Shown here piece by piece: positions 14,521 to 58,691 of a stretch of 64,000 bases of DNA. The position numbers and the translations under genes were made by a program. The notes under the pieces are model-generated. The model saw nothing but the letters and a program-made list of their open reading frames with translations. It was not told the DNA's origin and ran no database searches. Source of the DNA: Curtobacterium sp. MCBD17_013 (GTDB lineage: Bacteria; Actinomycetota; Actinomycetes; Actinomycetales; Microbacteriaceae); contig NZ_QKTU01000003.1 of NCBI RefSeq assembly GCF_003234565.1, forward strand, positions 1 through 64,000, read 5' to 3'. Numbering within the stretch: the stretch's first letter is position 1; every line of letters starts with the position of its first letter.

Positions 14521-14628
14521 GGTGTCCTTCCTGCCGCCCGTCGTGGGGCGATGCGAACCGGCCGCTCCGGGTGGCGGCCGTCGTCCACTCTACGGGCGGG
14601 GCCGGTGCGGTAATGTTCCGTCCACGTA

Positions 14629-14762
14629 CAGCGCTCCGGGGTCGGTGCAATTCCGAACCGGTGGTGACAGTCCACGAGCTGCGGGCGGACCGATGTCCGA
14701 CCGTGGTCGACCCGGTGGAACTCCGGGACCGACGGTGAGAGTCCGGACGGGAGGAAGCGCTG
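14629..14762 (+). ncRNA. FMN riboswitch (RFN element)
   Basis: Closing stem CAGCGCT (14629-14635) with AGCGCTG (14756-14762). Between them are the conserved FMN aptamer blocks: TCGGTGCAATTCCGAACCGG, GGTGACAGTCCACGA, GGTGGAACTCCGGGACCGACGG and TGAGAGTCCGGA. It ends 74 bp before ribE. By family knowledge it lowers rib expression when FMN is plentiful. The platform is not clear, but the downstream GC-rich segment can fold and may hide the ribosome site. A TAATGT -10 candidate lies at 14611-14616. Confidence 0.95.
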
Positions 14763-14836
14763 GGCGGTCCACCGTCGTGGGCCGTCCGTGGCGTCCTCCC
14801 GTGGAACCCTCCGGAGTCCCGACAGACAGGACACCA

Positions 14837-25056: not shown

Positions 25057-25899
25057 TCAGAAGAGGTCGGGGGACGGCGTGGAGGCGTACCGGACGGCGA
25101 CGTCCGCGTGCCGGTCGAACCGGTAGCCGACACCCCGGACCGTCCGCACGATCTCCTCGAAGGCACCGAGCTTCGAGCGGAGGCGTCGGACGTGCACATC
25201 GATGGTCCGCTCGTTCGGCGTCTCGTCCTCGCCGTCCGCCCAGAGTCCCTCGATGATCGCCTGGCGGTCGACCGTCCGGCCCTCGCGGAGCACCAGGAAC
25301 TGGAGGAGCTCGAATTCCTTGTAGGTCAGCGGTGCGGTCTCGCCGTCGAGCACGACCCGCTTGCGCGAGATGTCGATCACGACGCCGGTCTCCTCGGGCT
25401 CCGCGGGCGAGGTCTGCTTCCGCGCCGCGACCGCGGATCGGTCCTGCAGCGCGAGGCGCACGACCTCGACGTCGCGGCCCCCGGAGCCCTCGGCCGCCAC
25501 GGCGACCGCCGCGTAGGTCTCGGCGGCGGGGGCGAGTTGGGCCGTCAGGGCCTTGAGCTGCTCGACGATGGCCGCGAGCGAGGTGCCGGCCGCAGCGGCC
25601 TTCGCCTCGTCGATCCCGACGTAGAGGGCGAATCCGCGTGCCTCCGTGCCCTCGGGCAGGGCGCGGCTCCGGGCGGGAGCGACGACGGGACTCGTCGGGA
25701 CGTCCTCGGCAGCGGGCGCAGGCCGTGCGGCACGGGCGGGCAGGGCGGTGCCGGCAGCGGGGGTACGCACGGGCGCAGCAGTGCGGGCGTGCTGGGCCGC
25801 GGGGAGAGTCGGCCCGGCATGGGTCGGCGAGGCAGCGCCGGCGAGCGCGGTGTCGGCGGGGGCGGTGGTGTGTCGCGGGCGATCGATGGTGAGTGACAT
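25057..25899 (-). CDS. Winged-helix (OmpR/PhoB-type) regulator without receiver domain
   Basis: 280 residues from ATG 25899 with GGAGGA 7 nt upstream. Residues 1-90 are Ala/Pro/Thr-rich and disordered. A small domain follows (GFALYVGIDEAKAAAAGTSLAAIVEQLKAL) that is not a CheY receiver: the Asp/Lys phosphorylation pattern is missing. Residues about 175-265 form a complete PhoB-type wHTH (LTYKEFELLQFLVLREGRTVDRQAIIEGLW; NERTIDVHVRRLRSKLG; IVRTVRGVGYRFD). The frame is open for 78 more codons upstream to a GTG at 26133 that overlaps the mini-ORF stop. Signal sensed is unknown. Confidence 0.85.
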   Translation of the reverse strand: MSLTIDRPRHTTAPADTALAGAASPTHAGPTLPAAQHARTAAPVRTPAAGTALPARAARPAPAAEDVPTSPVVAPARSRALPEGTEARGFALYVGIDEAKAAAAGTSLAAIVEQLKALTAQLAPAAETYAAVAVAAEGSGGRDVEVVRLALQDRSAVAARKQTSPAEPEETGVVIDISRKRVVLDGETAPLTYKEFELLQFLVLREGRTVDRQAIIEGLWADGEDETPNERTIDVHVRRLRSKLGAFEEIVRTVRGVGYRFDRHADVAVRYASTPSPDLF

Positions 25900-26125
25900 G
25901 GGAGTCCTCCTGGCTGTGGCGCTCGGAGCGCCGGTGCGTCGAATGCGTCCTCGGTCGCGGCGTCCGCGGTGCCCGGACCCCGGCGAGGGGGTTCGAGGGC
26001 GGGACGAACCGAGGGGAGCGGGTACCTCCGCGTCGACGATCACGATGGTCGTCGGCGCCGGATCCCGGGGACCGCACACAGGACGGGGTCGCCGTCGGGG
26101 TGGGTCCGGCTGGAACGGGTGCCGG

Positions 26126-26227
26126 TCAGGCACACATTCGACAACACATGACCGCCATGCCCGGCATCATCATGCCGGCAGTCCCCTGGACCTCGACGAG
26201 GACGCGGGTGGACGAGGAAACAGTCAT
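26126..26227 (-). CDS. 33-residue Met/Cys-rich mini-ORF, likely leaderless
   Basis: Read from ATG 26227 to TGA 26126. The first 18 residues are ordinary; the last 15 are MMMPGMAVMCCRMCA, 9 of them sulfur residues. A good promoter ends 6 nt before the ATG, so the mRNA should start at the ATG. It lies 226 bp upstream of the winged-helix regulator on the same strand. It could be a cysteine/methionine-sensing leader peptide, like the Cys-tract leaders known in actinobacteria, or a small metal-binding peptide. Both are inference. An overlapping plus-strand frame is also Met-rich because CAT and ATG are complementary. Confidence 0.5.
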   Translation of the reverse strand: MTVSSSTRVLVEVQGTAGMMMPGMAVMCCRMCA

Positions 26228-26233
26228 GGGGCG

Positions 26234-26263
26234 AGTATCGGCGGTATACCAGGGGGCTGTCAA
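26234..26263 (-). promoter_or_regulatory. Sigma-70-type promoter of the mini-ORF
   Basis: On the minus strand TTGACA (26258-26263), an 18-bp spacer and GATACT (26234-26239). The spacer holds a perfect 8-bp palindrome GGTATACC (26243-26250) next to a run of five C, a possible repressor site. Six bases separate the -10 from the ATG. Confidence 0.6.
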
Positions 26264-26274
26264 CTGTCCCGGCG

Positions 26275-26548
26275 GACGTGCGGACGGGCGCCCGCGCGAC
26301 GCCAGCGCCGACCGAGCCTGCGAGGGCGGTGGAAGGGGCTACTCGGCGAGTCCGCGCGCTGGAGCTGAGGCGGCGCGCCAGCGCCGCGCGACGCCAGCGC
26401 CGACCGAGCCTGCGAGGGCGGTGGAAGGGGCTACTCGGCGAGTCCGCGCGCTGGAGCTGAGGCGGCGCGCCAGCGCCGCGCGACGCCAGCGGCGACCGAG
26501 CCTGCGAGGGCGGTGGAAGGGGCTACTCAGCGAGTCCGTACAACCGGT
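26275..26548. repeat. 92-bp tandem repeat across the upp 3' end
   Basis: Three copies with period 92 bp, anchored at GACGCCAGCG near 26298, 26390 and 26482. Each contains the last codons and stop of upp (GGACTCGC(C/T)GAGTAG on the minus strand) and a GC-rich inverted repeat GGCGCGCCAGCGCC. The real upp stop is at 26523-26525. Confidence 0.85.
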
Positions 26549-56193: not shown

Positions 56194-56275
56194 GGCGAGT
56201 TACCCAAGCGGCCAAAGGGATCTGACTGTAAATCAGCCGGCGTAGCCTTCGGGGGTTCGAATCCCTCACTCGCCA
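56194..56275 (+). tRNA. tRNA-Tyr (GTA)
   Basis: Acceptor GGCGAGT (56194-56200) pairs with ACTCGCC (56268-56274), discriminator A. Anticodon loop CTGACTGTAAATCAG with GTA. Long variable arm as in class II bacterial tRNA-Tyr, T-loop GGTTCGAATCC. CCA is not encoded (CCC follows). Confidence 0.95.
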
Positions 56276-56282
56276 CCCACGC

Positions 56283-56318
56283 GACGAGGGTCCGTCCGCA
56301 TCGGACGGACCCTTCGTC
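56283..56318 (+). terminator. Terminator after tRNA-Tyr
   Basis: GGGTCCGTCCG (56288-56298) and CGGACGGACCC (56302-56312) form a perfect 11-bp stem with a 3-nt loop, extended by GACGA/TCGTC around a one-base bulge. Confidence 0.85.
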
Positions 56319-56369
56319 GTCCCGACGGGTCCGTCCGTCCCGGGCCCCGTCCGTCCCGAGGAGGCCCCC

Positions 56370-57191
56370 GTGCCCGGAGCCAGCGCCACCGTCAGCGTCC
56401 CGGAACTCGCCGACATCGCCGAGTCGATCGGGCGCGACGCCGCAGCCCTCGCGCAGCGACGGCGGACCGAGGGGGTCGAGGTCACCGACCGCAAGTCGAG
56501 CCTCGTCGACGTCGTGACCGCGGCCGACCGTGAGGTCGAGGCGATGATCCGACGGCGGATCGCCGAGGTGCGACCGGACGACGGGTTCCTCGGCGAGGAG
56601 ACCGGCACGAGCGTGGGGTCGAGTGGGCTGACCTGGGTGGTCGATCCGATCGACGGAACCGTCAACTACCTGTACGGCAGCCCGTCGTACGGCGTCAGCA
56701 TCGCGGTGGTCGAGGGCGAGCCGCACCCCGCGCGGTGGTCGGCGCTCGCCGGGGTCGTCGTGGCGCCGGCCACGGGCGACGTCCACCGGGCCGAACGCGG
56801 TCGCGGAGCGTGGCTGAACGGGCGCCCGCTGCACGTCGGCGCACCGGCGTCGCTCGCCGAGTCCCTCGTCGCGACCGGGTTCGGGTACACCGCCGAGCGC
56901 CGCCGCGACCAGGTCCGCGTGCTCGCGGGACTCATCACCGAGGTCCGGGACATCCGACGTGGGGGAGCGGCGTCACTCGACCTCTGCGCGGTGGCCACGG
57001 GGACCGTCGACGCCTACTACGAGCGGGGGATCAACCCGTGGGACATGGCGGCGGGCGCCCTCGTCGCGGCGGAGGCCGGCGCGACCGTCGAGAGCTGGGA
57101 TTCGGGTGACGCCCGGGGGTACGTCGTCGCGGCGCCGGTGATCGCCGGCGCACTCGTGGAGCTCGTGCGGGGCCTCGAGGGCACGGACTGA
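56370..57191 (+). CDS. Inositol monophosphatase family protein
   Basis: 273 residues from GTG 56370. Metal motifs: GFLGEETGT, then WVVDPIDGTVNYLYGSPSYG, and near the end NPWDMAAGALVAAEAGATV. Removes phosphate from inositol-phosphate-like substrates, or histidinol phosphate in some relatives. Actinobacteria use it in inositol supply, but the substrate is not certain. Single gene behind the tRNA-Tyr terminator. Confidence 0.9.
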   Translation: MPGASATVSVPELADIAESIGRDAAALAQRRRTEGVEVTDRKSSLVDVVTAADREVEAMIRRRIAEVRPDDGFLGEETGTSVGSSGLTWVVDPIDGTVNYLYGSPSYGVSIAVVEGEPHPARWSALAGVVVAPATGDVHRAERGRGAWLNGRPLHVGAPASLAESLVATGFGYTAERRRDQVRVLAGLITEVRDIRRGGAASLDLCAVATGTVDAYYERGINPWDMAAGALVAAEAGATVESWDSGDARGYVVAAPVIAGALVELVRGLEGTD

Positions 57192-57338
57192 CGGCGCCAT
57201 CCGCCTCGGACTGGCCGTCCCCAGGTCGGGGGTGCGCGACTGGCAGGCGCACCGTGGACGCTGGTACCGTGCCAGTTCCGTCACTGCTCGCCCCGCGAGC
57301 GCGTTCCGCCCCGTCCTGAGGATCTCGTCCACGCCGCC

Positions 57339-58412
57339 ATGCCCTTCGACGCCAGTGCAACCGCCCCGTCCGTCACCGGTCCCGAAGCTCCGGTCGCACC
57401 GACCACCCGGCGTCAGCGCATCGACGCAGAACGCCGGGAGGCCCGGAGCGGTGGACGCAGGTCGGCTCGCGTCCGATCCGCGTCGCGTCCAGCGGCTTCC
57501 GCTCCGCACACGGAGGCCGCCGACGGTCCCGCGGTCACGCCGGTCCACCGGCCGCTCGTCGTCCCGCCCGTCCGCGGTGCGGGTGTCCCGCTCGCCGCGG
57601 CCACGTCGGCCCGTGTGCGGGGGAGCAGGACGGGCTCGGTCCCGGTCGTGGCGCAGCGTCGCGCGGCCGTGGCGGCTCCCCGGCGTGCCGGGCGGGGCCG
57701 CGGGGCCGGGGTCGCCACGGACGGCGCGCTGCGGCGCGCGGCCGAGCGGGTCACCGGTGCGGTGGCGCTGCTCTTCGTGGCAGGACTCGTCGTGTCGACC
57801 TCCCTGCCGGCGCAGGCGTCCTGGTCCCCGATGCCCCTCCCGGGACACGCGGCCGCCGGCACGACCGCGCAGTCCCTGACCGTCGGCGACGGCGCCTCGG
57901 ATGCCGAGACCGGTCGGGACGGCTACACGGTCTCCCAACCCGCGGCCGCGTCCGCGAACACGAGCGACACGTTCACGAACGACCCGAACGGGACCATCCA
58001 GTGGCCGTTCACGACCGGCGTGCCGATCACGAGCGGATTCGGCGCCCGCAACGTCGAGGGCTGCTCGTTCTGTTCCACGTTCCACGAGGGCGCGGACTTC
58101 GCGCCGGGCGCGGGCACGCCGATCCGGGTGATCGCCGCGGGCACCGTGACCAAGGTGCAGGCGGACGACGGCGGGTACGGCAACGACGTGTGGGTCGAGC
58201 ACGACGTCGACGGCAAGCGGTTCGTGACCGTCTACGGTCACATGGAGGACGACTCGTTCGAGGTGGTCGAGGGGCAGCACGTCGCGGTCGGGGACGAACT
58301 CGGCCTGGTCGGGAGCACGGGCAACTCCACCGGTCCGCACCTGCACCTCGAGGTCCACGTCGACGGCGTCGCGGTGGACCCGATCGCCTGGCTCCGGGCG
58401 AACGCGGACTGA
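57339..58412 (+). CDS. M23 family metallopeptidase
   Basis: 357 residues. After a basic, Arg/Pro-rich cytoplasmic N-terminus of about 130 residues comes one membrane helix (AVALLFVAGLVVSTSLPAQAS, about 143-163), then a linker and the LytM domain from residue 228: CSTFHEGADFAPGAGTPIRVIAAG, VYGHMEDDSF, GSTGNSTGPHLHLEVHVDG. The zinc ligands (H, D, H of HLHLE) are complete, so it is likely an active peptidoglycan endopeptidase outside the membrane. Confidence 0.92.
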   Translation: MPFDASATAPSVTGPEAPVAPTTRRQRIDAERREARSGGRRSARVRSASRPAASAPHTEAADGPAVTPVHRPLVVPPVRGAGVPLAAATSARVRGSRTGSVPVVAQRRAAVAAPRRAGRGRGAGVATDGALRRAAERVTGAVALLFVAGLVVSTSLPAQASWSPMPLPGHAAAGTTAQSLTVGDGASDAETGRDGYTVSQPAAASANTSDTFTNDPNGTIQWPFTTGVPITSGFGARNVEGCSFCSTFHEGADFAPGAGTPIRVIAAGTVTKVQADDGGYGNDVWVEHDVDGKRFVTVYGHMEDDSFEVVEGQHVAVGDELGLVGSTGNSTGPHLHLEVHVDGVAVDPIAWLRANAD

Positions 58413-58510
58413 CGCTCGGCACGCCCGGGGAGCGTGACCGGTGCACGCACGGCGCGCCGGCTCTGCTATCCTCGTACGGTGCCGCGCGCCGGGTTCCCGT
58501 CCGCGGCCAC

Positions 58511-58582
<72 letters not shown>

Positions 58583-58617
58583 CCGACCCGCAGCGCTCCC
58601 CGCGCCGCGGTGTCCGC

Positions 58618-58691
58618 GGCGGGGTAGCTCAGTTGGTTAGAGCACACGGCTCATAATCGTGGTGTCGCGGGTTCAAGTCCCGCCCTCGCTA
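58618..58691 (+). tRNA. tRNA-Met (CAT)
   Basis: Acceptor GGCGGGG (58618-58624) with CCTCGCT (58684-58690), including G:T pairs. Anticodon arm CACGG-CTCATAA-TCGTG gives CAT, T-arm GCGGG-TTCAAGT-CCCGC. It lacks the initiator C1:A72 and GGG:CCC features, so elongator Met is likely; tRNA-Ile2 (lysidine-modified CAT) is not fully excluded. CCA is not encoded. Confidence 0.85.

Follow-up and report, generated by a model that had tools for sequence, protein, structure and literature searches.

What is the role of a very short open reading frame, rich in methionine and cysteine codons, that lies between a promoter-like sequence and the gene of a DNA-binding regulator? The question arises in a stretch of 64,000 nucleotides from Curtobacterium sp. 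MCBD17_013 (hereafter the window, meaning the whole stretch that was analysed), for which an original prediction made from the letters had proposed either a sulfur-amino-acid attenuator or a metal-binding peptide. The comparison of related loci indicates that this mini-ORF is real, well beyond chance, and it inclines us, with restrained confidence, to regard it as a leaderless, translated leader that would control the regulator in cis as an attenuator and would probably sense the speed of translation, most plausibly through the supply of cysteine. The elements of the locus on which the argument draws are the following:

26234..26263, minus strand: predicted promoter TTGACA-18-GATACT, the only promoter-like match, with TTGAC/TTGCA kept in relatives
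26243..26250, no strand assigned: palindrome GGTATACC in the promoter spacer, read directly, Curtobacterium group only
26126..26227, minus strand: leader ORF of 33 codons with the end M-C-C-R(CGA)-M-C-A-stop, conserved family-wide
26159..26179, minus strand: predicted hairpin H1 within the leader ORF, its loop around ATGATGATG (arm swapping; RIBOSUM consensus)
26132..26143, minus strand: core TGTCGAATGTGT, codons Cys29-Arg30-Met31-Cys32 (TGY-CGA-ATG in 147/147 distinct ORFs)
26113..26139, minus strand: predicted terminal hairpin, built from the last bases of the ORF, its stop codon and bases 3' of it (consensus fold and single-sequence folds)
25937..25948, minus strand: ACGCATTCGACG, a complement to the leader core located 38-49 bases 5' of the regulator ATG (window p values 0.015 and 0.01)
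25906..25911, minus strand: Shine-Dalgarno (SD) sequence AGGAGG of the regulator, read directly
25057..25899, minus strand: winged-helix (Trans_reg_C) regulator of 280 aa (Pfam PF00486, 7.7e-22)

The leader ORF extends from ATG to TGA at window positions 26227-26126 on the minus strand, and its translation, MTVSSSTRVLVEVQGTAGMMMPGMAVMCCRMCA, ends in MMMPGMAVMCCRMCA, with Met or Cys at nine of the last 15 residues; both this reading and conservation bear out the original description of a 33-residue ORF with nine sulfur residues near its end. It is separated by 226 bases from the ATG of the regulator, and the gene annotated upstream of it with Pfam is upp. In a fold search, the DNA-binding domain of the regulator was 44% identical to that of GlnR, and GlnR DNA-binding domains are its nearest solved relatives; judged by this similarity, the regulator is GlnR-like in its DNA-binding domain. 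Pfam did not match a receiver domain in the protein, and the structure prediction for the N-domain was poor, too weak for interpretation. Between upp and the leader promoter, a 92-bp unit is repeated 2.7 times with a 98% match (window 26292-26538), the last part of the repeat overlapping the end of upp (26523). Elsewhere, the window carries an FMN riboswitch (14627-14764, 85.6 bits) and three tRNA genes on the plus strand (56194-58691).

Between 24.5 and 27.5 kb of the window, TTGACA-18-GATACT is the sole promoter-like match (1 found; 0.1 in shuffles), and its -10 element ends six bases before the leader ATG (26263-26234, minus strand), just as had been pointed out at the outset. Relatives keep this arrangement, since a -35-like TTGAC/TTGCA occurs at -46..-30 in 140 of the 145 ATG-start ORFs. 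The -35 element sits at -36/-37 of the ATG in 132 of these 145, a loosely defined -10-like match is present in 104 of the 145, and an SD-like sequence precedes the leader ATG in two. The leader transcript would probably begin at the ATG or next to it, and would then be leaderless. The palindrome GGTATACC beside a C5 tract, seen by the original prediction as a place for a metal or redox repressor, does lie in the promoter spacer, but it was found in 30/40 Curtobacterium-group loci and in 0/107 other loci, and we rejected it as a general operator because it is confined to that group. Five loci (L071, L090, L091, L095, and L127) have instead an inverted repeat, GTGCAAGAAACTTGCAC, over the -10 region and just upstream of the leader ATG, a possible operator distinct from the Curtobacterium-group GGTATACC. 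A further suggestion concerned a GTG that overlaps the end of the mini-ORF and opens a 78-codon extension of the regulator: this codon is present at 26133, but the frame of the regulator runs uninterrupted back to the stop of the mini-ORF in 2/40 Curtobacterium-group loci and 15/86 other loci, and since the extension is not conserved the translational coupling that it would allow was discarded.

To follow the leader in other genomes, we fetched 80 relatives of the regulator, from genera (among them Curtobacterium, Frigoribacterium, Cryobacterium, and Agromyces) that we take to be mostly Microbacteriaceae. With search patterns that required Cys and Met near the end, not Arg or CGA, the leader was read in 77 of these 80 relatives and in the window, and then also in L030 and L077, while L045 begins too late to include it. 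Together with loci of further genomes, the relatives provided 147 distinct leader ORFs with a common core; this set omits L081, which is a copy of the window, and L113-L124, which are weak matches from other families, and L172 and L176 also stand outside it, as they were missed by the pattern and read separately. Of 100 genomes sampled from the family, 99 have the regulator (E<=1e-30) and 70 a match to a profile of the leader (E<=0.001). Each of the 70 profile matches is found on the strand of the regulator, 84-423 nt upstream of it, including that of G074, where the CRM end is lost (L225). We inspected 20 of the 30 genomes without a profile match, over ~700-800 bases around the regulator start, and in 17 of them (L172, L175, L176, and L208-L224 minus L217, L219, and L222) an ORF with Arg(CGA)-Met close to its end was found near that start and on the same strand; one of the scans used here required CGAATG and therefore contains CGA by construction. 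A broader sample of 248 genomes of the order contained 18 strong matches to the leader profile, all of them in the window's family, and the regulator in 60 genomes, reaching further families. ORF, promoter, and ending are kept in relatives that retain the regulator, in agreement with what the original prediction had expected of a functional element.

A leader was also found in a second family, f6, which we take to resemble Micrococcaceae. Here, it precedes the regulator in 12 of 18 loci (again in a scan that required CGAATG) and ends in CCRM[HQ]A in eight cases, in CRRM[HQ]A in two, and in CCCRM followed by other residues in the remaining two. CATTCG recurs 42-47 bases before the regulator ATG in nine of the 11 placeable leaders, seven of which have a second copy at 102-107; given that the single-locus p of the near site is 0.035-0.18, the case for pairing in f6 comes from this recurrence across loci. 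With the same requirement for CGAATG, none of the eleven loci of f7, f9, and f12 had a leader. Several f6 leader promoters (L197, L201, L203-L207, and L239) display repeated TTGTTAC boxes. GTAAC boxes are typical of GlnR-type proteins, and the TTGTTAC boxes recall them, so that autoregulation is possible at these promoters by analogy.

The end of the ORF contains its invariant part. All 147 distinct ORFs carry TG(T/C)-CGA-ATG, where Cys is encoded by TGT in 121 and by TGC in 26 ahead of CGA; the core ATG is followed by TGT in 91, TGC in 52, CAC in two, and TCG in two, and Cys29 is preceded by TGT or TGC in 95 and by CGT in 40. The Met and Cys positions emphasized by the original prediction are preserved in part: those of TGY-CGA-ATG are kept in these 147 ORFs, but Cys28, Cys32, and the Met run change. 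CGA accounts for 4.1% of the Arg codons in the 80 regulator genes and for 9.3% in 74 upp genes, and TGT is over-used in the leader, given its rarity in upp (11 of 185 Cys codons). We dropped the idea that CGA is fixed solely by pairing with the ribosome-binding site, as it is fixed even where no partner is visible and a G-U pair would permit CGG. Consecutive Cys codons near the stop, represented in the window by C28-C29 together with C32, are not universal among relatives, and longer Cys runs occur in L168 (CCRMCCC), L172 (TRMCCCN), L216 (RMCCSN), L223 (RMCCCC), and L224 (RMCCCR). Nearly every leader read has a Cys beside Arg-Met. Single Cys positions differ in L176 (RRMCA), in L058, L175, and L213 (CRMH), in L138 and L141 (CRMSA), in L208 and L220, which have RRM without a preceding Cys, and in L225, without any CRM.

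Lineages with endings such as RMCCCC favor cysteine as the signal, for which, within the attenuator reading, we see the chances as about evenly balanced. What survives of the sulfur-amino-acid attenuator initially proposed is a conserved ORF tied to the regulator and Cys codons that extend into runs in some lineages, but not the sensing of methionine; the gene downstream is that of a GlnR-like regulator, not of a known sulfur regulator. The same attenuator in cis could respond to slow decoding or translation stress in general, caused by the rare CGA, antibiotics, or arginine supply, and not to cysteine. This alternative, which we consider possible though rather unlikely, would fit the use of CGA as the sole Arg codon of the core in 147/147 ORFs despite its low frequency in regulator and upp genes, the alternation of TGT and TGC in the Cys codons beside it, and the replacement of Cys in several lineages; it is countered by the at least one Cys that stands beside Arg-Met in nearly every leader and by the runs that some lineages have.

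An attenuator acting in cis, whatever its signal, would depend on RNA folding. Codons 16-23 can form the hairpin H1 around ATGATGATG, with the Met run as its loop. When the 3' arms of H1 were swapped among loci, the mean MFE was -10.7 kcal/mol (sd 0.26; 300 permutations; 76 distinct arm pairs) vs -12.7 observed, and 125 distinct segments gave -13.2 vs -11.3 permuted (sd 0.17), in permutations that ignore kinship. The covarying arms include GCCGGC/GCCGGC, GTCGGC/GCCGAC, GCCGAC/GTCGGC, ACCGGG/CCCGGT, and GTCGCG/CGCGAC. Given 109 diverse sequences, RNAalifold predicted only H1 and a small hairpin across the end of the ORF under RIBOSUM scoring and no consensus structure under default scoring, and we abandoned the search for a single consensus of the whole leader. 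The ORF end folds with bases 3' of the stop in the consensus of the Curtobacterium group and in other single sequences among the matches listed. In its strict form (CCG-N5...N5'-CC-CGG), the post-stop hairpin is present in 16 of 107 non-Curtobacterium loci vs 0.48 in shuffles, with nine arm pairs, and in none of the 40 Curtobacterium-group loci, where the post-stop fold is longer and different (consensus of 41 sequences). Taken as a single sequence, the window leader has an unremarkable fold (z -1.48, 6/100 shuffles as good). No terminator-like site, that is, a GC hairpin followed by a U run, was detected in the window between 24.5 and 27.5 kb, and attenuation by an intrinsic terminator was set aside there. 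Rfam gave no gathering-level match at the locus, the best permissive one (E 6.6) being on the opposite strand. These predicted covarying hairpins, inside and after the ORF, the invariant CGA codon, and, in certain genera, the complementarity of the ORF to the region around the regulator start are new with respect to the original prediction, which had not foreseen them.

In several groups of loci, parts of the leader ORF are also complementary to sequences near the ribosome-binding site of the regulator. An exact ACGCATTCGAC starts 34-66 bases upstream of the regulator in 36/40 Curtobacterium-group loci, with a single-base change in L013, L016, and L017; in L039 it was not found. The complementary site of the window, ACGCATTCGACG, is located 25 bases upstream of the SD and does not cover it; another set of genera has ATTCGACA directly between SD and ATG. 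CATCATC, the complement of the H1 loop, occurs no more than 60 bases from the regulator start in 28/86 other loci vs 0.37 expected from base shuffles, and in 0/40 Curtobacterium-group loci. In six of seven genomes picked for having it, the pattern AAGGATTCGACN{1,4}ATG was found once per genome, at the regulator; the seventh yielded no match because the gap of its own site is shorter than the pattern permits. The CATCATC-SD-ATG pattern appears 1-3 times per genome in seven genomes (overlaps counted), five of which include the regulator site. A simple complementarity test reached p<=0.05 in 53 of the 147 loci, comprising 40/40 of the Curtobacterium group (L039 at another site than ACGCATTCGAC) and 13/107 others, and a clear pairing partner is absent in the Cryobacterium, Agromyces, and Frigoribacterium loci. 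A single universal pairing between ORF and ribosome-binding site was consequently rejected, as pairing is seen in subsets of genera only.

We infer a switch of the following kind, in which the leaderless start, the stalling, the direction of the response, and cysteine as its signal would all be part of one mechanism. Transcription would start at the ATG and a 70S ribosome would translate the leader ORF; the place that the ribosome occupies among the final codons, Cys-Cys-Arg(CGA)-Met-Cys, would select the pairing of the RNA. The ORF end would have two fates, either to fold with the bases after the stop or to pair at, or upstream of, the ribosome-binding region of the regulator. If charged cysteinyl-tRNA were scarce (or translation slow), the ribosome would remain on the core, the inhibitory pairing would be blocked, and the regulator would be translated; free-running translation would release the core and the regulator would be held down. 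Once the ribosome is gone, the core or the H1 loop could pair with the start region, or the core could fold with the post-stop segment. In the genera that have ATTCGACA between SD and ATG, pairing would block initiation directly. Since the partner in the window is found 25 bases before the SD, its effect there would be indirect, through a neighboring hairpin, mRNA stability, or Rho.

Such a mechanism places demands on the reading frame rather than on the peptide. The distance from ATG to promoter and the CRM end are kept in one frame across ORF lengths of 26-44 codons, a result that the in-frame selection of matches favors for the frame but not for the promoter distance, which is independent; all three stop codons are used. 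L077 is longer than its 23-codon entry when read from the aligned start, and the stretch of its hairpin loop (LMMPV codons) is tandemly repeated in frame within the ORF. The leader of L030 has a frameshift, which could be a draft error. In codons 2-15, the variation at positions 1/2/3 was 0.36/0.36/0.35 in 61 non-Curtobacterium 33-codon ORFs and 0.18/0.22/0.12 in 20 Curtobacterium-group ORFs. Equal variation among codon positions is not the usual coding signature, and the about equal change at the three positions implies that the amino-acid sequence of codons 2-15 is hardly selected. A test for amino-acid selection likewise found only the Cys-Arg-Met end kept, with MMM lost in L209, L211, and L212. 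The leader peptide is probably a by-product of the translated ORF.

Other readings would make the peptide, or the DNA, the active element. A nascent peptide that itself stalls the ribosome on a ligand would be in keeping with the conserved C-terminal R-M, often C-R-M-C, but we find it improbable because the remaining peptide drifts, its codon positions changing about equally, and the f6 leader shares the Cys-Arg-Met end only. We give similarly little credence to the conserved strings being DNA operators for a GlnR-like autoregulation, with the ORF incidental: the Curtobacterium group does have TGTCGAATGTGT and ACGCATTCGACA as inverted copies of each other, and a DNA-binding domain is part of the regulator, but the frame is kept across ORF lengths, the arms of H1 covary, and the complements are near the gene start, not at the promoter. 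The Met/Cys metal-binding or redox micro-protein, whether active in trans or as the regulator's partner, which the nine sulfur residues in the last 15 of the window peptide had suggested, was rejected as very improbable, as the greater part of the peptide drifts, the Met run forms a covarying hairpin loop and is lost in L209, L211, and L212, Cys28 is Arg in 38/40 Curtobacterium-group ORFs and Cys32 is His or Ser in some, and 70/70 profile matches are in cis, just upstream of the regulator.

The translated leader acting in cis could be one case of a more general device. Tentatively, and with more doubt than confidence, we propose that an obligatory slow CGA framed by Cys codons would time the ribosome, that one RNA segment would choose between a local hairpin and the start of the regulator, and that this module would be shared with sulfur genes. 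A pattern search across 345 genomes of the class returned 23 sites, six of which are ORFs that end in M-C(3-4)-R(CGA)-M and directly precede O-acetylhomoserine sulfhydrylase (metY) genes; these six come from six genomes that belong to other families (G509, G532, G421, G614, G563, and G600; enzyme family checked for one of them). They also speak, weakly, for cysteine as the signal. All six ORFs end in TGT-TGT-TGT-CGA-ATG, where CGA is no independent evidence since the pattern fixes CGA-ATG. In a pattern-free reading, the start of metY was placeable in 8 of 20 loci; the four from pattern-chosen genomes have Cys-CGA-ATG, and none of the four readable upstream regions from genomes not so chosen has it (L290 has a Cys run then ACC CGC, L287 has a Cys pair in a different setting, and L295 and L302 have neither), which makes a module shared with metY less likely. 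The Cys-run leaders MCCCRM... before O-acetylhomoserine sulfhydrylase genes belong to L248, L272, L276, L278, L279, and L285, and these loci have in common a stretch, GGCAAGCGCGGG, ahead of the leader that may be a further RNA element. In L243 and L244, from 1.4-Mb genomes, a short ORF bearing TGTTGTCGAATG (...IGCCRMESTDNFCFT) precedes a gene whose product has an exported-protein-like start.

Comparison with known systems places the leader close to several of them. In the uORF riboregulation of whiB7/wblC, an actinobacterial uORF precedes a transcription factor gene, as here, but the ORF and the regulator are different and no terminator-like site was found at our locus. Translation attenuation by occlusion of the SD is exemplified by erm and cat. 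As in this mode of attenuation, described in PMC13236596, a region of the uORF can pair near the downstream start and a stalled ribosome would free that start; unlike it, the partner here differs among groups, is absent in some, and is upstream of the SD in the window. Leaderless polycysteine short ORFs of mycobacteria are cysteine-responsive attenuators (Canestrari et al. 2020, according to PMC9031893 and PMC13236596). As portrayed there, they share with our leader the actinobacterial origin, an ORF expected at the transcript start, Cys codons, and a position upstream of the controlled gene, but here a DNA-binding regulator follows, there are usually two or three Cys codons and no run, CGA-ATG is fixed, and covarying hairpins are predicted inside and after the ORF. 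PMC1262725 describes candidate cys leader peptides upstream of cys operons or cbs in Mycobacterium, Propionibacterium, and Bifidobacterium; those are likewise short ORFs in which cysteine codons lie close to the stop, without conserved terminator-type hairpins, whereas hairpins are conserved here. The genera of interest were not found in the main texts of the structured-RNA surveys PMC6429828 and PMC11109978, and the leader has no published description in the literature searched, the scope of which left out most subscription journals and supplements. On sequence grounds, it appears to resemble cysteine leader attenuators, from which it departs in the control of a regulator, the hairpin inside the ORF, and the fixed CGA-ATG.

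If it operates as we propose, cysteine-codon attenuation would be linked to a transcription factor present in 99 of the 100 sampled genomes of the family. The leader element is easily found in many genomes and, at the thresholds used, matches nothing in Rfam. Its invariant CGA-ATG raises the question of whether a slow codon, beyond the amino acid that it specifies, may be selected as a timing element. Should the reading as a Cys-CGA-AUG module be true, the leader would represent a new class of attenuators, with the module also placed before sulfur genes of some other actinobacteria, and the GlnR-like protein would regulate the response of these families to sulfur or cysteine, a role so far unrecognised.
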